From the NCBI GenBank assembly GCA_034620365.1, contig JAQGEQ010000192.1:2475001-2539000 (forward strand): a stretch of DNA of 64,000 nucleotides, given 5' to 3'. Origin of the DNA: Pegea sp. RAD2-039 (taxonomy: Eukaryota; Chordata; Thaliacea; Salpida; Salpidae). Shown here piece after piece: positions 3,001-33,824 of the stretch (the stretch's first letter is position 1; each line of letters opens with the position of its first letter). The notes under the pieces are model-generated. The model did not search any database. It was given only the letters and a program-made list of their open reading frames with translations, and was not told the origin of the DNA. The translations under genes and the position numbers were made by a program.

Positions 3001-4958
3001 GTTTAACTTAAGGTTACTTGTCCCTTTTTTAATTATAACTTAATTTCCAGCCTTACATTAGTGTTTGTGGGTTTGAATATCCAAAGCAAGTTTCATCTTA
3101 ATTCTTGAACAAGTTTGCACTCAAACATTTTTTCTTACATTTATAACTGGTAAGTTATGCAAGGTTACTTTGTTCCTCTTTCATTATCACATGCTAGTAT
3201 TTTTCGCACAGAGTACGAAAAAAGACAACTGAATAGTTACACATCATTAAATATGAAAATAGTTATTCAGTAAAATTTTTCCAAGTTTTTTTTAAACCCA
3301 ATTTTGTTCATAATAAGTTTCAATTTAAAATAAAAACCATTGTGCTCAGCGCTTATACATGCTTATACATGCGTTCATTTTATACAGTAAATTTAGTAAG
3401 TTGGGAGTTTTGCAAAATTTATATTCTAACTTACACATCCAATATATACCTAAAGTTTAATATATTTTAGCTCAACATTATTTTACTGTTGTTGTCAAAT
3501 GATGCTTTTATTGAATAAAATGCACTATATATAGCTATTAAAATATCTAAGTAATAAAATATTCAGGTTTATATATAGGATACAATATGAATAGGTTTTC
3601 AATATAAAAGGATTTGAATTTGTGGAAGGTACAGTGTTATAGTACCATTTAATAAACACACAAACTTTATTATTCTTTTAATTTAGAAAATCTTTTGTTT
3701 GGTTAAAAATGTAATGCATTTGTTAGAAATAAATTTAAATATTGCTAAATATCATAAAGCGCCAAAATAAGATTACAAAATAACCAATTTGGAGTATATC
3801 GAAAATGAACTTTGTAATGATTGGGTATTCGTTGCTAGGAAAAAGCTGTACATACCTGGAAACAGCCATGCTTCAGAATATAAAGTTGTATGTTATGATA
3901 AAACATTTCTATTGTAACTTTATTAAGGTTAATTACTTTTTCTCAACATGAAGTTATTTAAATTTGTTTTTATCGTTTTTATAAGAATGAAGAAATTTAT
4001 AACATTTTTTCAAGTGCAACTCTTTTAAAATGTTGAATTATAAACATTTTTACAGTTTAATTTATAATATAATTTATAAAAAATTTAGATAAACTAATGT
4101 ATAAATTTAAAATATTATTTTCACTTTTTTCTTCATAAATAAAGATATATTTCTTACTTAATCATTAAGTTCTTACTCACTTCTATATTATCATCAAAAT
4201 TATTTTAATTTTTAATAGTTTAATAATTGATACTATTAAAATTATTTTATCTAGTTTATCATTTTTATCACTATTTTATAATTATGAAAAGGAAATGAAT
4301 GACTTAATATTAAAAGTGTTTTGTATTTGACTAATTACTTATATCTTTCATAAGTTAGTTTATTTTTTAAAAGTTTATTTTTTTATATCAGTTTTTTTTA
4401 CTAACTTATTTCAAATTTAAAATAATTTTACTTTAAAATTATTCATCATGAAAAGTATCCTTTTAATAAAAGTTTACTGAAAAGTTTTAATTAGCTGTTT
4501 AGTGATTTGAATTGTTCCTTCGATTTCAATTTATAAACTATTCAATTAGGATTTTATCAGATTTTTTATTCCATAACTTTTTTCATTGATAACTTCTTTA
4601 AAGTCTTTTAAAATAAAATAATTTGTGATTTAAACTTTATCATGGTGTATTAATTAGTAGAGTCTTTTTAAAATGTATTTTTTTAAAGTATTTTTTCTTT
4701 AAATAGATGTATATGCTCTTTAAAAAATAAATACATAGTCAGTTTTGATCTAATAGATTGCTTGACATGTCAACTTTATATATAGTTACTAGGTCATTGT
4801 TATAAAAAATTCTCTAAGAAATCTTTGTAAAGTCAAATCTTCAAGATATCATCAATATCTTTTCCTGATGACTTGCTTTTGTTGATTACTTTGTATGTTT
4901 CTTTTGTTTTTATTTTATATATTTTTATTTTAAGTTTACTGTTAAGTTAAAACTGAAG
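1..4958. other. AT-rich intergenic region
   Basis: No coding exon, RNA gene or mobile element was recognised on either strand. The stretch is low-complexity A/T sequence with short open frames only. A short direct repeat of GCTTATACAT occurs near 3351-3372. The last part (about 3780-4958) is the likely promoter and 5' region of the plus-strand gene that starts at 4959. Confidence 0.6.
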
Positions 4959-7349
4959 ATGTCATTGCATCTTGATCCAAATGTACTTGGATCAAAGATA
5001 AACAGAAATGATCTACATGCGACCAGTACTGGTAAAGGACATGATTTTACAAATGGATGCAACTTTCCTCCTTCTTTGCTTAGAGTAGGTATCTAAATAG
5101 ATTATTTTGATTACTATTCATAAAATCTTCATAATCTTCAAATAATTTCTTTTAGTAAGATTCTTTTTATTTTTTTAGCAAACTCGTCCTGATGTCTTAC
5201 CTCCTGTAAAGAATAACAGAGATCGGATCACTTGGTCTGATGAAATTTTGAGAGCATATGAAACTACTTCTGGTACTTTTCATAATCGCAAGAGCTTTGG
5301 AGTAAAACCTTTTAAAAATCCATGCTATAAAAAAGCAGCTGCACATTGGAATGTTCATTATATGAAAGATGTTTTGGAAAAAGTAAATCTGAAATAATTT
5401 TATCAATAGAAAGTTTTGAAAAACCACAGAACTATTTCTTAGTATTTTATTTTAATTAATTTGATTTGAAGGACTATTTAACTGTGAATTTTAAAACTAT
5501 AAGCAATAAGGTTGTTTAATTTTGATAAATTTAACTTTTTTAGCCTACCTAACAGACATGTTTCAAAACCTACTTTTTACAAATTGTTTATTTAAATTCA
5601 GCTAATATTAAAGACTAACAAAATCAAAAATTATAAATTCCTTAAGATATCATCTATCAACCTTTTATTACACAACTTAAGTTATTAAATAAAAAACGTA
5701 AATTCAATTTTACTTATAAAAGTTAAAAGTTTGTCATATGAGCAATCAATTGCTTTATTTAAGATGATAAAAAGACAATATTGAAGTAATTACTGTTGTG
5801 AAAGAATTTAATTATTCGATTTAAATTACTGTCATCATTTGATTACAAAATCTGTTGTATGTTGAATCTTCCGGCCTAAGATACAACCAATTTGCTGACT
5901 AGTTTAAAGGAGATTAAGTATATTTAAATAATAGTTTGAAAATAAGTTTTTTTATGAAATCAATAGTAAACTACTGATTGTAGTCAGAAGAATAATTCAT
6001 TTTCTGATTACAGCTACAAGCAACTGATTCAAAACGGGTCCCGCTAACAATGGGTTATCAAACAAGTGAAACAAAATCAGAATTCACAGCTAAAAACTCA
6101 GCGGTTGCTTCAATACCTGAAAGATCAGATTATCAACCATTCAACTTACGTCAGCACCATATTTCTGGACCTTCATCAAGAGTGATAACATCTAACAAAA
6201 ATCCTGCAGTATCTGGAGACCCTTACTATGTGCCAGAAAAAGGAACGTTCAAACTGAACGATATTTATTTAACAACAAACAATAAAGAACATCGGCGTTT
6301 TACAAAGTTAGTAAAAGTCAATCATAAAATTGTACCTTTTGTTATAAAATTTAATTTGATCTTTGTATAAAATTGATGTTTTATTGATGACTTTAAAAAG
6401 ATCTTTTTAACAAACACTAAGCCTGTTTTTTTATTATTATTTTAAATTTGATTGACCAAATAATTCTTTAAAACTTTTAAAAATAGTTCACAAATACTTA
6501 TCGCAATTAAACTTGCAGAAAAGAATTAATGAATTATCCTAAGAAAGATATCGCAACTTATTGGGAATGTGAACAATACCCAAAAGCATGGGGCCATGGC
6601 TTAAAGACAAATCCTTTGATTCTGGAATCAGATCCATCTTACCAATTACCAATGAGAGATGAAGTAGTTTTCAAATCTGCTACAAATATTCCAAATCTTC
6701 CAAAGCTAAAACCTAACGTCCCTCACAAAGGTTTTTTGAAACAATTTTTTTATCAATTTGATGTGAATTGGTTGCTTCAAAGTAAATTTGTTTTTCGTCA
6801 AAAACAAACTTTCAGTGAATACCAAATAACATTTAAAGTTTACATATCATTACTTGTTCTATTAACTTTTGTGCTCATTTCTTAATGAGATAAAAGCTTT
6901 AATTGTCAACACTACTAACCCTGGTTCAAACCTCACATGCAGTAAAACATTTTATTAAAAAATCCAATCTGGTTGATTTATATTCTTGATTTCTAAATCT
7001 TCTTCAAACTAACTTTTTCTACAAACAAATCTTGCGTTCGGTGATTGATAATGTGAGAATTGTTTGCCTACAAGCTGCCTTTTAGGGGTACTTTTTAAAC
7101 TGTTAATTATAAAATATCTTTGAAATTGTAAATTAAACGGAAATTTGTTTACAAACAGGAATGAAGACTTTGATGACTGACTCTTACAAAGGTGGCAATG
7201 GAGAAATGAATAAATACAACTTATTCTGTCCTATAGACACACCAAATGTTGCAACTGTATCAGGAGCCAAAGATATTATGACTGTTCCATTTATGTATAA
7301 AACCGAATATGGTGCTTATGGCAGTGGTCGACCAGTCACAGTTGCTTAA
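4959..7349 (+). CDS. Putative axonemal/sperm microtubule-associated protein, 341 aa, five exons
   Basis: Exons read at 4959-5084, 5179-5382, 6014-6306, 6519-6730 and 7159-7349. All junctions are GT-AG and phases agree, giving a 341-residue protein. It has no signal peptide or membrane segment. It is rich in Pro, Asn, Lys and aromatic residues, with short motifs such as WECEQYPKAWGHGLK, FKSATNIP and PHKGMKTLMTDSYKGG. The last exon ends EYGAYGSGRPVTVA. This composition, with conserved W/Y/G/P short motifs and no globular domain, is typical of ciliary microtubule inner or stabilising proteins, but I could not assign a named family with certainty. The ATG directly follows CTGAAG, so a (trans-)splice acceptor at the start codon is possible. 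A candidate poly(A) signal AATAAA lies at 7585-7590. The gene is convergent with the PTH-like gene. The gene structure is well supported; the function is a guess from sequence style. Confidence 0.75.
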
Positions 7350-8401: not shown

Positions 8402-9390
8402 TTAAAACCGGGAACCCCCTTTTTGTTTGTTACGGTAAGCCATTTTGTTACAAACACAATTTGAGTTGTTTTGTTTCGATTTTTTATCCACAAGTTTCAA
8501 CAGTTGTTCAACATCGCTTCTTGAAGATTTCTTAATTTGCTTTAAAGTGTTTTTTAACTTTTTAATCAAGGCTTTGATTTTTTTTCTTAATTTACGACGT
8601 TGATCTTTATGATCTACTCTTTTCTTATGACTGTTCTGTTTCTTGTTTTTCTTTCGCTTATTATTATAACTTTCAGTAACACTTAGAGATTTTGTAGCTG
8701 GTAAAGTGCTCGGTTGAACTATTGTATCTTCATTTGTCTTACTTTTTCGTTGATATTTTTCGTTTAAACTTGCCGAGTCACTTTCATCTATTGATGCTTT
8801 AGCAATTGGATCTACACTGCTTAAATCATCATTAGAGCTTTTATCTGGCTTCCATCCTAGTTTTTGTAACTTCTGAGCCAACCAAGCTCGTCGAATAAAA
8901 ATTTCTCGACGCCTACTTCTCATATGCCCAAAATCATCTTCAGCTATACCTCGTTTACTGTAAAAATAATTGGTGATGAGTTAAAGAGGATACTTCACTA
9001 AGCTAACTAGATAGAAATTATTTACTAGTTTGTAGTAATCAATCGTAGTTTAACTTTTACAACATGACAGCTATTTTTTGTAAAAACTGATTAATAGAAA
9101 TTTGAAATTAGCTGTCAACTGTAGATGAAAAGAACTTCTTTTGAAGTTTCATATTGAATAACGTCTTGAAGTTAATTTTTTATGTCCTTAGCAATTTTAC
9201 GTTTTTAAAAACAATTTATTAGTTTTTTATGACATGATATTTTATTTTTAAACATTTCATTGACTTGTAATAATATTTCATTGGCTTACCTGATAGTATG
9301 AGAGTAAGATGACTGTTGTTTCTTCAGCTTAAGTACTTGTGCTCTGCATGAACAGAATGCTAACAAAATGAAGGCAATTAATTTCCACAT
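8402..9390 (-). CDS. Parathyroid-hormone-family-like secreted prohormone, 218 aa, two coding exons
   Basis: Exon 1 is 9390-9290 and exon 2 is 8957-8402. The donor is CAG|GTAAG and the acceptor TTTTTACAG, joined in phase 2. Residues 1-17 (MWKLIAFILLAFCSCRA) form a signal peptide. A short propeptide ends in Ser-Lys-Arg at 34-36. The predicted mature peptide starts GIAEDDFGHMRSR and continues to RRAWLAQKLQKLGW. Counted from Gly1, it carries Glu4, His9, Arg20, Trp23, Leu24, Lys27, Leu28 and Gln29, all identical in position to human PTH without a gap; Arg21 matches PTHrP and RRxWL matches TIP39. Residues from about 70 on are Ser/Asp-rich, then strongly basic (KRKKNKK, KKRVDHKDQRRKLRKK), like the nuclear/nucleolar region of PTHrP. 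In that family the peptide acts through class B GPCRs. The intron lies one nucleotide before the Lys-Arg codons, as known for vertebrate PTH and PTHrP. The gene itself is well supported; the family call rests on the short N-terminal match plus intron phase. A different basic secreted peptide is the alternative. Confidence 0.7.
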
Positions 9391-25183: not shown

Positions 25184-28100
25184 TTATGATTGTTGCTTAC
25201 TGAGTTTGATTGCAAGTTCAAGATCTGCCTGTTCTTGCAGTTGGATTTTTTTCCTTCTCTCTTCTTCTTTCTTACTTTCAAGTTGTGCCCATGCTAATTG
25301 TTCAGCTTCAGTCATCGAGCGCTAAAACAAGTTTCAATTTGTGATTGATTCACTGCTAGAAGGTTAATGGTTGATTGAACTGAACAAGTTATTTCAGAAA
25401 CACATCAGCAAACATTTGCTGTTAAAATGCTGTTTTAATAAAACACAAACATCATAGAGGTTAACTAAAAGAAACTAACAAGTAGAAAGTTAGTGAGCAG
25501 CAGTAGCAGTTTAGGAAATCAAACATAAGTGTTTACTTTGGACTTCTCTTTGCTTTTTACCGACACCGCTTCACTTTTGACAAGCCGCTGACTACTAGCT
25601 GTCCATGGCATGCTTGCAGACTCATCAGAAGACTTGCTTTCAAAAGGGGTGAAGCTATCGAAACCACTTGCAGTTGAAAGACTGAATTTGCTATCTCCAA
25701 AAGGGTCATCAGTTGATGAAGAGGTAGCTTTGAAAGTATTGTTTCCATCTCCTCCAAATCCTGACCCCCAAGGATCATCAGAGCTAGTGTTCTCCTGTGA
25801 AAGATGAGATAGTGGATAGTTGATAAAGATGAGATGTTTACTTGTTTGACTGAGAATGAGAAGAAGTCATCTTGTGAGGCTCCCTTATTCGTATCAAATG
25901 AGCCAGCATCATTCGATCCTAATGATACAAGTTAAGATATTTGGTGATTTATAAATGAATCCTCACCAGAAAACGGATCATTTTTTGAAGAGGACTTTTT
26001 GGCTTCTACAGTTGCAGCAGCTTCTTCAGCAAGCGCTCGAATCACACCACCTCCTGTCTTCATCGTAGAATTGAACTTTCCTGCTGATATGGAAGAGGCA
26101 AATGCAGATTGATCTGAGGATTCTCCTCCAAAGGGGTCCGAGCCAGAAAAGGGATCTGACGTCATAAAAGGGGACTCGGTGGTGGATGGTGCAAATGGGT
26201 CAATATTATCCCCAGCAGTAGAAGTGAATGGGTCTTCATTACCCCCCAGATTATTTGCAGAAGCAAACGGATCTGCTGATGACGTAGCACTTGCTGCAAA
26301 CGGGTCTGCTGATGACGTAGCATTTGCTGCAAACGGATCTGCTGATGACGTAGCATTTGCTGCAAACGGATCTGCTGATGACGTAGCATTTGCTGCAAAC
26401 GGATCTGCTGATGACGTAGCATTTGCTGCAAACGGATCTGCTGATGACGTTGCACTTGCTGCAAACGGATCTGCTGATGACGTAGCATTTGCTGCAAACG
26501 GATCTGCTGATGACGTAGCATTTGCTGCAAACGGATCTGCTGATGACGTTGCACTTGCTGCAAACGGATCTGCTGATGACGTAGCACTTGCTGCAAACGG
26601 ATCTGCTGATGACGTAGCATTTGCTGCAAACGGATCTGCTGATGACATTGCACTTGCTGCAAACGGATCTGCTGATGACGTAGCACTTGCTGCAAACGGA
26701 TCTACTGATGACGTAGCATTTGCTGCAAACGGATCTGCTGATGACGTAGCACTTGTTGCAAACGGGTCTGCTGATGACGTAACACTTGCTGCAAACGGAT
26801 CTGCTGATGACGTAGCATTTGCTGCAAACGGATCTGCTGATGACGTAGCATTTGCTGCAAACGGATCTGCTGATGACGTAGCACTTGCTGCAAACGGATC
26901 ATCGATATTTGAATTTGAAAGTTCAAAAGAAGTCTTTGGTATTGTGGATGAAGTAATTGATGAAGTAATCGGAGTATTGTTACTGGTGAATACCTCAGCT
27001 GATAAATAATCAGTTTTGATAATAAGAATCTATATCAAGTTTTGACTAACTTTTAAAAGGATCATTTTCAGGTTTAAACATTGACTCATTTAAATCACTT
27101 TTCAAATCTTCAATCTTTTCTTGCATCCCTCCCATACTGAAAACACTCTTACTCGGTAAGATCTGCAGATATTTCAACTTGCTTTATTGACAAACTGCGA
27201 TTATGCAAATGAAGTACCGAGTTTGAAGATTCAGATTTTGAATAGTTAAAAAGACTCTCGGATGTTTCGCTTGCTGCAAAATCAATGGAAGGATTTATAG
27301 AAAGATGTAGATGTGAAGAAAGTACCTTGAATGGAATGAATCGCTTTATCATATTCTTTGATATTTGAAGACAGATCATTGGACTGTTTTTGATATTCTT
27401 CAATTTTACTTTTTATCTGTTAAATATGAAAAGTTTAATAAATAAAATATGATCGACTAAAGAGGCGCCTGAGAAAGATGAAGATTAGATCTCAGCTTCT
27501 GGGATACTCTAAGACTGCTAAGCTAGGAAAATGGATTCACAATTTGATCAGTGGATGTCTAATAAAGATCAACGTTTTGCGGATCGATATTCAGAGAATA
27601 AGGAAAAGACGATAAGTGGTTTAGACCAAGGCCCAGTGGACCCCATCACCAACCACCCCTTATCTTGGGTACCAGGGCAACACTAACAATTGACCAACAC
27701 ATGGAGATACATGGGTACTCCGCAAACAAAATGGACGGCCTAAGACAAATTCTTTTCAAGATATTCACAGACCACCTCTGCTTGATATAATTTTTCATAA
27801 AAACTTCAGATTAATCGAAATAAATTTAAAATATTCAGCTGAGTTTCAAAAGATGAAGAAGATTTTTGGAGATTTAATAATCAAACAAATGAATTGAAAA
27901 AAAGAAAAGTGGTTAATTTTCATGAGCATCTCTGAACTAGTTGAGTGTTGTTGTACAAGTCAAATAGAAAACCACTCACACTTTTACTTTCAAGAATAGT
28001 TTAGAGAAAAGTGTTAGCTAGAGTGAAACTTGTTGATCGATTTTTAAAAATAGTTTAGATGAACTAAAATAAAATCGATTATCTATATCTACTCAGTAAT

Positions 28101-31100
28101 GAATTCATTTTGTAGGATTTATTCTAACTTGCTTAAGTGATGAGGAAGTAAAAAGATAAAAGACTTTCAAACAATTGAAGTGAATATCTTAGAAAGTTAT
28201 CAGCAACCAACTTGTTCCTGTTCTTTTTTAACTTCTTCAATTTTATGATTCATACTATCATCTTGTTGTTTACCAGCATCTAATCTTTGTTCTAATTGCA
28301 TCTCTTCCTTTTTTAAATCTGATAATTCAATTTGTAGTTTCTGTAGTTCAGCTTCTTGCTGTTCAGCAGATGCTGCTTGACATGAGAGCTGTTCTTTCAA
28401 TTGTTTAATCTAAAAAGATCAAATAAACAACTAAAGCTAGAATATTTGATCAATTAATTTAATTTAAAAGGATAAATTTGAAAGTGAAGTGTGTTGTGCG
28501 TCACTATAAGCTTAATCACGTTTAGAAGAATTTTATTAGATAAAGAAATCAAGTTGAACAAACATGTTCTGTTTCTTGTTGCATTTTAAGTTTGATATCT
28601 GCCAACATGTCATCAAGTTTGCATTTATGTTGATCGAGTTCTTCCAATCGAGTTTGAGCTTCACCTTTTTCACTTTCTAACTGAGCCAGAGTGACATTGT
28701 CTTTGTCCAGTTTCTCTTGAAGCTCCTATAGAAGATAAAAAACAGTTTTTGAAAAAAAATATAAATAAAAGTGATAAAGTAAAACGATAGAAAACTTTCT
28801 TGTGGCTTTTCACATATACCACCCATGAAAAAGCTAAATTGATAAGCAGTTGGTGAAAGATGTAACATCTATTTGGAATAAATTGATGTAGATTCAGAAA
28901 AACAATCAAAAAATCTTCTGATTATATAAAGATTATATAAAGAGCTTTTATTCAATAAAATAATCTTCAAAAAATCTTTTAAATAAAATTTAAATGTATT
29001 TTTTTAGATAATTTATTTGTAAGAAAGCAAATGATTTTAATAAAAGTTGAAACTAAAATGGTTTTGAAATAAAATTACTAAAAAAAGATTCTTGAAAAAA
29101 ACTTAGAAATGATGTTAACAAGTTAGATGATATCATTTGTAGTAGAAATGAAAAAATTAGTCGCAAAAAGATGAAGTTCTAAACAAAAAAACCTTTTTTT
29201 TAAGCTAATTTATTCTTAGAAAAACTGAAAATTGAAAAAAAAAAAACTTTCTCATTTTCTTAGTTTCTAAAAAAATTGATATTTAACAAAAATGACGACA
29301 AAACAATTTCACTTCATTCATTTCAAGTTTAACATTCATTTAATTTCTTTTTTGTTTTTTCCAGTCTTTGTATAAAAAAATATCCTAAAACTGCTTCTTC
29401 TTAAAATTCTATTCTCTCAAATTCTCTGCCAGCTTTTTAGTCAACTGAAACACTATTGATGTCTCACTGCCAGTATTTTGTTGCAAGTAAAATTCTCTAA
29501 AACCATCTAATCAATATTTTAAAGCAAATACATAAAGCGCAATTTGTAAGTAAGTCCAACACCAGCTTGCTAACCAACTTTTGATTAAATATTTCAAAAC
29601 CAAACTGAGTAAAAAAGTTTAGAGGAAAATATCCAGAAAAAACAATCAATAAAATAACCTGAACTTTATAACTTGTTTGTTTTATCGTTTTTTCTTTCAA
29701 TTCAATCTCATTTCCAAGATTTTCTTTTTCTTGGCGTAGATCTTCGATTTCTTGATTCAGAGCATCGAGTTCTCGCATCGTAGTGTTGTCTCCGACTCCA
29801 CTACTACCATCCGAGACACTTCCTCCTTCCTGCTGATCAACAGATGAAGTTTTGGAGGAAATTTGTCAATTTTTAATGCTTTAGATGAAACTTATTTCCA
29901 ACATGAAACGATTTTGATGAAATTATTTGTGAAAAAAAAAGAAATTTTAATGAAATATTTATTTCTATCTTCAAAATATTTGTTGCTGTCTTAAATTAAA
30001 ACTGAAAAATTAAAAAAATTTTTGTTGAAGATAAAAATTGATGAAGAGAAAGAACTCACGCCAAATCCAAGATCCTGACTGATCACCAAGAAGTCAGGAG
30101 AGACAAGTTTCGGGATCTCAAGACCCTTCACGGTTTGTGCTATGAGATGCATGGCAAGGAGGAACTGATCATGCTTTAATCTTCCTTGCTGGAGAGGATC
30201 ACACATCCCCCTTGACATTCGAAATTAGTTTCAAAATCGTTGGATATGATTGGACGATTACCAGATATCAGCAAGAGTGGTTTGCGGTAATCCACTTCGG
30301 ATGAAGATCGATTTAGCGGATTCACCGCTGATAAATCCAAATTGATCTTTTTGTTGTTGGAAGATGTTACTGTATCTACTTTTGTCAGCTGGACTTATGT
30401 AAAGTGGAGTAGGAGTAGACTGTAAAAGAAAATGACAAGAAAAATTTAGTTTGTTTCTCACTGAGTTGGAATGAAACTAATTAACATTTGGATTGGATCA
30501 CTTTGATGTCCACTTGTTCACTGTGACACTAATTGAACTGAACAAGTTTACTTTCGAAAGAATACTTTTAAAAGAAGAACTGTCAAAGAAAACCAACAGA
30601 AAAACAAGCTAGTTGCTGATTAAAACTCCTGGTCGACAAAGATAGTGCGCGGATATGAAATGAGTTTAGTGGAATGAATTCAAATCGAACTTTGTGACCG
30701 GAACCGCGTCCAAAAATGGACACAGTTGAAGTTTGAGGCGATCAAAGGTTTGGTGGTAGATACAACTGACTGAGATAGTGAGTTAAAAAGCCAGCAAGTG
30801 AATAGATGTTTAAAGTTGTGAGAGGTTGATGTTAGCAGATGCCTCAAAAGCTATATCTCTTGCATACGTAGTGATGATGATTACAAACTGATTTTATGAG
30901 CTGAAATTGTCGAATTTTATTGAAAAATCTTCCAAATCTAACAGCTGATTTAGAAAAAGGAATCAAATTATTTGACCTTCACCGATTTCCTCTTCTTTTT
31001 GGCAGCCGAGTCTTCAGAATCTTCACAATGCTGAATATGGCAATTTTCCGAAAACTTTGACACTCCTCTTTTAGCTGTGTTCCGCCATTGTAAGTCCTTG

Positions 31101-33824
31101 GACGATCAATTGAGAGTTATTTGCATATTTTCATGCTTTGTGGTGTGAGATGTTAAGATAGTAAGTAATCTACAACCGAACAGCTCTGAACAGATTCACA
31201 TTCGCAAAAAATAATTAATCAAAATCAGTTTTGCAAAACCCATGCGCAAAAAGTAGTAGCATCTTTCTAACTGATATGATCTTATGATTAGAGTTATTAA
31301 AAACTACAAACAAAGCATGCCTTCAACCTTTATCGTAGCTGCCTCCTACTGCCTCATAATTTATTCAAACTTCTTTTTTAAACTAATTAACCTGACTATT
31401 AGAAGACAAAATCATTTAATGATCCGCCAAAAGCATTTAAATGAAATTAAAACTATAAAAGCATTAAGTTTAATGAATTTAGGTTGTGGCAATCATCAAT
31501 CAACATCTTTCATATTTCCTTCAAAGATAACTGGCTTTGTATAGAAAATGAAAAATATGAAGATGATTTTGTTGAATATGTACTTATGAAATTACTTAAG
31601 CATTAAACTAAATCATTTGTAAACCATTAAAAGCAAAAATCTTGTACTATTTGTTCTAATAGGTCTTTCGATATTTAAAAGAATAAAGAGATTAAAAACT
31701 GTTTTTTTTTCTGAAATAAAACAAACAAAAATTATAGGAGTACTATTTCAAAAAATCAAAATAATCTTGAGCATTTTGCAGTGCCATAACTTCATATAAC
31801 TGCTAAACAATCTTTCAAATTAAATTAAAAACAGATTATAATTGTGTCTGTCTCATCATAACTTCCATATCGAGTTGTTGGTTTCTATTACTGAAAATTG
31901 ATTTTAGTTTGCGACAAAACTTCAAATGGAAATTTAATAATCACGATTTTGCAGCAGTATAAGCAATACCACGGATGTTAATTTATGAGTTTAGATTTAA
32001 TAAAAAAAAAAACTGAAAATAAAAATGAAAAAATAAAAAAAATTTGCAAAATGAATTTTAGAGATTAATTATTATGTGAGCAGTAAAGAAAAAGTCTCTT
32101 AAGTTTGCTAACCAGATTATTAATAGCAAACTTAATAGTAAGTATGATACTTACTTGAGATTAAATTAAAGTTTTATGAAAGTATTAATTTGCTGATTAA
32201 AAATTATCATAAAACCAGTTGTAGCTGGTTGAATAGAGGGAAATTGTAAGTAATATTAATGCTTGTTAACTATAAATACTGCATAAAAGATATAGCAATG
32301 CAAAAGATAGAAAACTAGTTTAACTTACAGTAGAAGTGACAGGTGAACTAGATGAATTTGTTGGTGTTGGTTTGGCAGCAGTATTTTTGTTTAAAGGCAT
32401 CACGCAAACAGAACCTGAAAATTAATAAGAGTATAAACATTGATGTTTTATATATACACAGTATCTTCTATGTAATAAATATTTGTACTGAGAAAAACCA
32501 ATAAAAGTCAATTTATAAGCACCTGGTAAGTTGGGTTTGGAAACTTGTGATGAAACAGACGTAGAAGGTATACTAGACCTTAAAAGCTTGCTTGGAGGAA
32601 TTAAACTTTGTGGTAAAGTAGGAGGTACTGGTTCTTTTTCAATTGCTCGATACACTAAATGCATCGCCTATCATAAAATGTTTTTATAATTTAAATTTTC
32701 TGGAGGATTGAAAATAAAATTTTCAGAAAATAATTTGTATTTGAGTATTATCAAATATATCTTCATGTGTTCTTGTTTGAAAATGTTTAATTTGACCAAA
32801 ATTTCAACAACTTGTCCTTAAGAGACAAGCAAACCTTGTGGTATGTCCTTGTTATTAAAATTTTGTTTATAAGCTTATTAATAACATATTAGCTACACAT
32901 TTTTGTTAAAATATTTTGAAAAATCTAAAGTGTAAATAAAGCTTTATTATAAGATAAACTAACATATAAACACAACTAAATAAAACTGAATATGATAATA
33001 CTACATCTATTTCTACTTTTTATGCAAATATTATTTTTACATATGATATAAAAAGCTAAATCTAAAAATTTCAAAAAATAAGTTTAAACAAATGTTTTTA
33101 TAAACATTTTCACCAAACAGAGTAATAAAGTAAGAAACCTGAGTAGCTGGTTTTAAAGTTACATTCAAATAACAACATTGTCATAAAATAGATATCTGAC
33201 ATCAATTGAATTTTTTATCTTTTTAAGTTAGAGAGAAACTTTTGAAAGATTTTAAATGATTTGAAAAAATTATAAAATTGTAAATAATGACTTACTATAC
33301 AAAATTCATCTTTATCTAAAAGTCCATCTTTATCAATATCTGAAAGGTCCCACACTTTACCAAGAGTTTCAATGGATAATTTTGAATTTAAAAGCACTGG
33401 CCTCACCTAAGATAATCATTATAATCAATTTATTTCTTCAATTGAATTTTACAAATAAAAATTACTCAAATTATATTAATGTTTAGCTTATTTCAATAGA
33501 AACTTTTCTTAGCAGACTTATATGTTACTTGAAGATAAAATAACTTTTAACAAAAATCTAATAATATACTTCAAAATTAATTTTCAAAAATATATGTTAC
33601 ATAATTACTAACATTATTTAACTTACTTAGAAAATAAATAAAATTAAGAACAGTTTAGTAAAAATGTTTATTCTGTTGTAATGTATAGACCTAAAAATAA
33701 AACAGACCTTATCACCAGGTAGTTTACCAGATATAGGTTCAAGACTATTAAAAATCTTTTCATATTTGATTCTCTCATTTGCTTGTATTATCCACATATT
33801 GCTACTTGAATATCCTACGGACAT
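25184..33824 (-). CDS. EPS15: Epidermal growth factor receptor substrate 15 (EPS15/EPS15L1 type), about 1026 aa, 16 exons
   Basis: Exons: 33824-33708, 33406-33296, 32667-32523, 32414-32329, 30419-30262, 30210-30060, 29832-29659, 28725-28564, 28409-28212, 27416-27326, 27273-27153, 27136-27051, 26998-25967, 25918-25842, 25794-25561 and 25321-25184. All phases agree. EPS15 is an endocytic scaffold at clathrin-coated pits. Residues 10-100 are an EH domain (KPVLLNSKL-like core, EF loop [13 protein letters not shown], then EKEPVP). A second EH domain ([11 protein letters not shown]-like start, [11 protein letters not shown], degenerate loop) follows at about 160-255. These match human EH2 and EH3; EH1 is not seen. 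A coiled coil spans about 275-500, then a DPF-rich region binding AP-2 with a tandem repeat. The C-terminus ends in a ubiquitin-interacting motif ([14 protein letters not shown]). The junction at 27137-27152 needs a 16-nt intron or a weaker alternative. The start at 33824 is provisional. Confidence 0.93.
26264..26899 (-). repeat. 33-bp tandem repeat coding for DPF motifs, about 19 units
   Basis: On the plus strand the unit is CGGATCTGCTGATGACGTAG plus GCA(T/C)TTGCTGCAAA, repeated about 19 times with only a few substitutions. On the coding minus strand each unit gives the 11-mer [11 protein letters not shown] or [11 protein letters not shown], so each adds one Asp-Pro-Phe motif for binding the alpha-adaptin ear. 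The near-identity of units points to recent expansion or homogenisation. The unit length is a multiple of three, so copy-number change keeps the reading frame. Confidence 0.97.
27137..27152 (-). other. Candidate 16-nt intron in EPS15
   Basis: The coding strand reads GA|GTAAGAGTGTTTTCAG|TATG. It has a strong GTAAG donor and a TTTTCAG acceptor, and removing it joins the flanking frames in phase (Asp codon GA+T). Without removal the frame ends at GAG TAA. Longer alternatives of about 67-72 nt use weaker sites: CAA|GTTGAA to AAAAG|ATT, or A|GTTTGT to GGGAG|GG. Confidence 0.4.
27590..27790. other. GC-richer tract inside an EPS15 intron
   Basis: About 180 bp of clearly higher GC (for example GGCCCAGTGGACCCCATCAC and CTCCGCAAACAAAATGGACG) lies in an otherwise AT-rich intron. 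It has no long open frame on either strand. It could be an intronic structured RNA, a repeat fragment or a regulatory element; the sequence alone does not decide. Confidence 0.3.

Follow-up and report, generated by a model that had tools for sequence, protein, structure and literature searches.

In vertebrate PTH, R20, W23, L24 and L28 as well as the N-terminal segment have established roles as receptor contacts. PTHrP is a long precursor that carries a basic stretch behind the hormone part, and together with TIP39 these hormones are among the closest known counterparts of the gene analysed here. PTH-like peptides outside the vertebrates are not without precedent: as far as the available text of two reviews goes, they have already been predicted in tunicates and amphioxus (both reviews cite Mirabeau and Joly, 2013). 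A sequence-only reading of the present DNA had rated a PTH-like hormone outside vertebrates as highly surprising, which the two reviews show to be overstated. According to the citing reviews, the genes of Mirabeau and Joly (2013) are of the kind described here and belong to the same group of animals. No tunicate PTH sequence in print was found in the literature examined, the sequences of Mirabeau and Joly (2013) lying outside its scope. The accessible parts of PMC5818035, PMC12441681 and PMC8936170 (the latter two on Ciona peptides) contain neither the term PTH nor parathyroid, and an earlier paper, in the portion available, reports that no TIP39 gene was found in Ciona or amphioxus (PMC3483286).

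Here we describe a gene in a window of 64,000 nucleotides (the window being the whole stretch of DNA that was analysed) which very probably encodes a tunicate PTH-family hormone that mixes TIP39-like and PTH-like traits. We base this identity on a Lys-Arg site followed by a gap-free alignment to three human hormones, on the position of the intron and on three PTH-receptor-like genes in the same genome. The gene appears to be a new, well-supported example of the tunicate PTH-like hormones; since such peptides had been predicted earlier, it is not a new kind of hormone.

Gene model and precursor

Open reading frames and GT-AG signals define a two-exon gene on the minus strand (9390..9290 and 8957..8402) that encodes a precursor of 218 amino acids. 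The start ATG lies at 9390, a GT donor follows 9290, an AG acceptor precedes 8957 and the stop codon occupies 8402-8404. Coding exon 1 (9290..9390, minus strand, GC 0.36) contributes residues 1-34, i.e. the signal peptide and most of the pro-segment, and its last codon takes its third base from the start of exon 2. The predicted signal peptide (residues 1-17, MWKLIAFILLAFCSCRA, 9340..9390, minus strand) is hydrophobic, as read by eye, and is separated from Lys-Arg by a pro-segment of 17 residues, QVLKLKKQQSSYSHTIS. Coding exon 2 (8402..8957, minus strand) comprises the Lys-Arg pair, the mature peptide, the C-terminal tail and the stop. By base composition, a run of 192 codons without a stop, as seen in this exon, would occur 0.0004 times in the window. 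The predicted prohormone cleavage site, Lys-Arg at residues 35-36 (8951..8956, minus strand), is a reading of the sequence; directly behind it are the PTH-like positions 1-34, GIAEDDFGHMRSRRREIFIRRAWLAQKLQKLGWK (residues 37-70; 8849..8950, minus strand), which were delimited by alignment to the human hormones. The product is thus a secretory-type precursor with its predicted mature peptide immediately behind a dibasic site, as in the PTH family. GC content is higher in the exons (0.33–0.36) than in the intron (0.24) and the flanks (0.25–0.27). The splice junction was placed from GT-AG and the reading frame, and transcription and splicing are presumed. The two-exon model of the sequence-only reading holds, with the junction as a prediction. 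A second copy of the precursor was not found in the genome, where the sole further match had E = 2.2.

The intron (332 nt, GT-AG, phase 2; 8958..9289, minus strand) ends one nucleotide before the Lys-Arg codons, and the human PTH exon may likewise begin one nucleotide before Lys-Arg. The tunicate intron is inserted after the second nucleotide of codon −3 and, as in vertebrate PTH, separates a prepro exon from the exon that encodes Lys-Arg and the mature hormone. A figure legend, the part of PMC9974466 consulted, states that human PTH exon 2 covers residues −6 to −3 and runs one nucleotide into codon −2; taken literally, this places the tunicate and human introns within two nucleotides of each other. 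In elephant shark pth2, too, an intron precedes the KR site and resembles those of other pth genes, according to the available text of PMC4354418. The resemblance to human PTH extends over signal peptide, short pro-segment, KR and an intron adjoining the KR codons.

Behind the hormone-like part the precursor continues into a long basic tail, in which K or R account for 24 of 50 residues between 131 and 180 (8519..8668, minus strand). The C-terminal region of human PTH is shorter and far less basic, whereas a basic stretch also follows the hormone part of the long PTHrP precursor. The tunicate tail may act in nuclear targeting, serve as a spacer or hold a second peptide. Internal RR pairs and the basic tail offer many possible cleavage sites for the C-terminus of the mature peptide. 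The tail also includes a candidate cationic amphipathic helix, KALIKKLKNTLKQIKK, with a hydrophobic moment of 0.67.

Likeness to the human hormones

The letters of human PTH, PTHrP and TIP39 were verified against PDB chains, and TIP39 was aligned with its residue 3 at position 1 of the peptide. Over 34 positions in a single gap-free register the peptide shares 8 residues with PTH (24% identity), 5 with PTHrP and 10 with TIP39 (29% identity). Human PTH and human TIP39 have only 5 identities with one another, fewer than the tunicate peptide has to either. The residues common to human PTH(1-34) are E4, H9, R20, W23, L24, K27, L28 and Q29, exactly the eight listed in the sequence-only reading; the two peptides differ in their start (SVS in PTH, GIA in the tunicate) and at position 8 (Met8 versus Gly8). 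E4, H9, R20, R21 and L24 are shared with human PTHrP(1-34), which has F23 in place of W23 and an 'LHD/MHD' motif that the tunicate peptide lacks; position 8 is Gly and there is no 'MHD' at 8-10. R20 and L24 are the sole columns that are invariant across the three human hormones, and both are kept. That R21 is shared with PTHrP and RRxWL with TIP39 had been noted correctly. The likeness to TIP39 goes further than that account, to ten identities (A3, D5, R11, R13, R20, R21, W23, L24, K30 and L31). The N-terminus of human TIP39 also has L-A-D-D where the tunicate peptide has I-A-E-D. However, the Ala/Leu-rich middle of TIP39 is missing, the tunicate peptide is two residues shorter ahead of the common register, and it is followed by a long basic tail behind the helix. 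Taken by its sequence, the N-terminal half thus appears TIP39-like (I-A-E-D versus L-A-D-D) and the binding half PTH-like (R-x-x-W-L-x-x-K-L-Q).

BLOSUM62 scores in this register are +23 for PTH, +13 for PTHrP and +28 for TIP39; the seven other registers (−3 to +4) all give −14 or less against each hormone, with one-residue shifts ranging from −14 to −44. The summed score of 64 is unmatched: across 60,899 34-mers read in six frames from the window and the fetched loci the runner-up has 35, and across the 1,016 that stand behind two basic residues it has 14. When further loci were included, the strongest of 65,392 competing 34-mers reached 43. Only 7 of 4,000,000 composition-keeping shuffles attain 64. 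Ranked by one hormone at a time, the peptide leads for TIP39 only (28, next 25). Its 23 for PTH is exceeded by three or more other 34-mers (27, 25 and 24), and the 13 for PTHrP falls well short of the top 34-mer (31). The PTHrP identity count of 5 in 34 is by itself not significant (shuffle p 0.09). Over positions 1-34, the gap-free match stands above chance when the three hormones are combined, and also when TIP39 is taken by itself. Segment 16-31 is not unusually amphipathic, and the same measure gives a like result for the human hormones.

Profile searches gave weaker results. Pfam reported no family above its cut-off in the precursor, with neither PTH profile (PF01279, PF14980) among the matches. 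A PF01279 search of the genome was empty, as it was in every control genome, and phmmer with the peptide against PDB chains returned nothing up to E = 10. However, human TIP39 goes unreported by PF01279, as do human PTH and PTHrP by PF14980, which is likewise silent on the tunicate peptide, so that the Pfam miss is not diagnostic. A phmmer search started from TIP39 similarly missed PTH up to a limit of E = 1. With an unfiltered HMM of the three human peptides, the ORF of exon 2 was 12th among 6,737 ORFs, some of them duplicated (6.0 bits, E = 5.1), and the isolated 34-mer came first (10.3 bits), but at E = 0.22. With an HMM built from PTH and TIP39, the 34-mer ranked at the top with 13.9 bits (E = 0.014), followed by its own ORF at 9.9 bits. 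In leave-one-out controls human PTH obtained 15.6 bits and PTHrP 16.5 bits, both above the tunicate peptide; an HMM of PTH and PTHrP gave 7.4 bits to human TIP39 versus 6.1 to the tunicate peptide, and the TIP39-only HMM ranked the latter 10th. From the leave-one-out, Pfam and phmmer controls we conclude that the peptide is about as distant from PTH and PTHrP as TIP39 is. It provides a calibrated case of how distant members can escape curated PTH profiles.

Receptors and the tunicate genome

The class B receptor family accounts for 49 matches in the genome, many of them on the same genes, and 13 regions were compared with human PTH1R; the query pieces were literal translations throughout. Three PTH-receptor-like genes (L052, L050 and L051) lie close together on contig C258, at ∼ 1.74, 1.77 and 1.78 Mb and within ∼ 45 kb. 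For the joined exon pieces of each, PTH1R is the best match (L050 334, L051 218 and L052 201 bits) and PTH2R the second (300, 212 and 186 bits), ahead of the next receptor type (236, 162 and 166 bits). By comparison, L053, a receptor of this genome that served as control, scores higher with GLP1R (226 bits) than with PTH1R (192 bits) and is GLP1R/GCGR-like. The sequence-only reading had asked for a PTH-type class B receptor and named its absence as the main point that would tell against a PTH-family hormone; given the three PTH-receptor-like genes, that point falls away. Ciona has two PTH receptors, according to the available parts of PMC2396169 and PMC3483286. As the present genome has three within ∼ 45 kb, one more than Ciona, the cluster suggests local duplication. 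A further candidate class B receptor, L054, was also seen.

The sequence-only reading had argued for a compact, trans-splicing, non-vertebrate genome, and this is borne out by a spliced-leader array and by a cellulose synthase/GH6 locus. In the genome (105.7 Mb), ATTCTATTTGAATAAG occurs 99 times as an exact copy directly before GT; the reversed control gave 0. The available text of PMC7986045 and PMC3407064 gives this 16-nt sequence as the spliced leader of Ciona. One-third of the exact leader + GT copies (33 of 99) form an array on contig C4 (1135044-1142219) with units of mostly ∼ 199 bases, and in the eight array copies read (L049) the leader continues with GTAAGT, a normal donor. A GGAG/CTCC hairpin lies downstream of the leader in the array copies read. 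Among 15 copies from eight loci, the Ciona Sm motif AGCTTTGG was absent within 60 nt of the leader start. Seven copies outside the array (L042-L048) continue with GTTATA- or GTTTT-type sequence, not GTAAGT, and look like dispersed repeats.

A fusion of cellulose synthase with GH6 is a mark of tunicates. On contig C14, at ∼ 71-76 kb (L065-L066), a GH6 domain (identified by profile match) lies behind cellulose-synthase exons (motifs recognized by eye) in the same orientation, and the two apparently form one gene. Judged by the Ciona-identical spliced-leader array and the cellulose synthase/GH6 locus, the genome is that of a tunicate, a member of the animal group nearest to the vertebrates. Homeodomain matches number 71; among the 30 loci translated are Cdx-like and posterior Hox-like homeodomains, which we take to fit a chordate. 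A rotifer origin, considered for an AT-rich genome with trans-splicing, was rejected: the rotifer spliced leader had no match at up to three mismatches. Mitochondrial COX1 had no match in the assembly. TEAD, the single marker tried for synteny with the vertebrate PTH neighbourhood, is located on a different contig (C115), but one marker says little in a genome that is probably scrambled.

Rival readings and proposed action

One alternative is that the gene encodes a class B hormone of the glucagon/GIP-like or secretin/PACAP-like branch, its PTH likeness reflecting only a shared helical ligand design. Human GIP on its own indeed reaches an ungapped score of 23 with a shuffle p of 5.9 × 10−4, which ranks between TIP39 (3.6 × 10−4) and PTH (8.8 × 10−4) and ahead of PTHrP (6.2 × 10−3), and the GLP1R/GCGR-like receptor L053 is present in the genome. 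Yet the GIP likeness is a C-terminal run (LAQK...WK) offset by three residues from the register of the N-terminus, and residue 1 is Gly, not the N-terminal His or Tyr typical of the glucagon/secretin branch. The families as wholes also separate, with summed scores of 3 for glucagon and 5 for secretin/PACAP versus 64 for PTH. When each hormone family was scored alike with seven registers allowed, the family score was reached by 45 of 2,000,000 shuffles for PTH, compared with 43,672 for glucagon, 47,234 for secretin/PACAP and 269,975 for CRF. We consider membership of the glucagon or secretin branches improbable. We assign a similarly small likelihood to a chance resemblance, in which the gene would encode an unrelated secreted basic peptide such as a tunicate-specific neuropeptide or a cationic host-defence peptide. 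Such a peptide would suit the very Lys/Arg-rich tail with its amphipathic cationic helix candidate and the failure of family profiles to recognize the sequence, and the sequence statistic, taken alone, would lose weight if every hormone family were tried at each dibasic site. On the other hand, few dibasic sites would presumably follow a signal peptide as well; the first rank of 60,899 34-mers on summed score coincides with a PTH-like intron position, and three PTH-receptor-like genes need a ligand. The register, the summed-score rank, the shuffles and the receptor genes together uphold the PTH-family assignment made in the sequence-only reading.

Two further readings concern short motifs and distant relatives. 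DDFGHMR at positions 5-11 (8918-8938, minus strand) is like the core of arthropod sulfakinins, and the sulfakinin profile PF08257 is the best sub-threshold Pfam match of the precursor, at residues 5-11 (14.3 bits, E = 0.036, cut-off 20). Sulfakinins have a C-terminal Phe and a Gly amidation signal. Here, however, DDFGHMR runs on into S-R-R with neither, and the alignment covers only 2-8 of the nine profile residues and leaves the last one unmatched. The available text of PMC8149874 gives the Ciona CCK/gastrin homologue as cionin, a different peptide. The motif is probably a chance feature of the mature peptide, and a sulfakinin/CCK-type hormone is extremely unlikely. Just as implausible, in our estimate, is that the gene belongs with the protostome iPTH/PXXXamide peptides, the known ligands of insect PTH-like receptors. 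According to the part of PMC7224569 consulted, iPTH/PXXXamide activates PTH-like receptors in the beetle Tribolium, and iPTH is amidated (GXX signal), has a conserved SD near its N-terminus and is < 12% identical to human PTH, PTHrP and TIP39. Against this stand a precursor without Gly and two basic residues, a mature peptide without SD at its start, and the higher identities to human PTH and TIP39 (see above) than the < 12% given for iPTH in the same text (PMC7224569).

For a PTH-family hormone we propose the following action. The precursor would be secreted and cut after Lys-Arg by a furin/PC-type protease, freeing the peptide. Residues ∼ 20 to 31 (R20, W23, L24, L28 and L31) would dock as a helix in the extracellular domain of the receptor, while the N-terminal I2, A3, E4 and D5 would enter the transmembrane bundle. 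Through at least one of the three receptors, this entry may switch on Gs/cAMP. The ligand and the three PTH-type receptors form a concrete set for two questions: what role the hormone system had before calcium and bone control, and which receptor selectivity, TIP39-like or PTH-like, is the older.

The sequence-only reading further placed the gene close to the ancestral form. This is possible, though a single sequence without an outgroup is insufficient to show it. A bolder version, in which the gene is the sole surviving, little-changed descendant of the ancestor of PTH, PTHrP, PTH-L and TIP39, jointly with dual action, tripled receptors and a PTHrP-like tail, seems to us rather doubtful. If it were true, a TIP39-like activating N-terminus on a PTH-like helix could act on both PTH1R- and PTH2R-type receptors, the hormone would serve a locally tripled receptor set in a boneless animal, and the basic tail might match the nuclear-targeting region of PTHrP.

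Two observations were made elsewhere in the window. Several short ORFs adjoin the hormone gene (4872-7346, plus strand) and resemble, by eye, small microtubule-inner proteins of sperm or cilia. An EPS15-like gene, also named by eye (25522-33000, minus strand), contains a long tandem run of SSADPFAA(N/S)AT units, a large expansion of DPF-type motifs.
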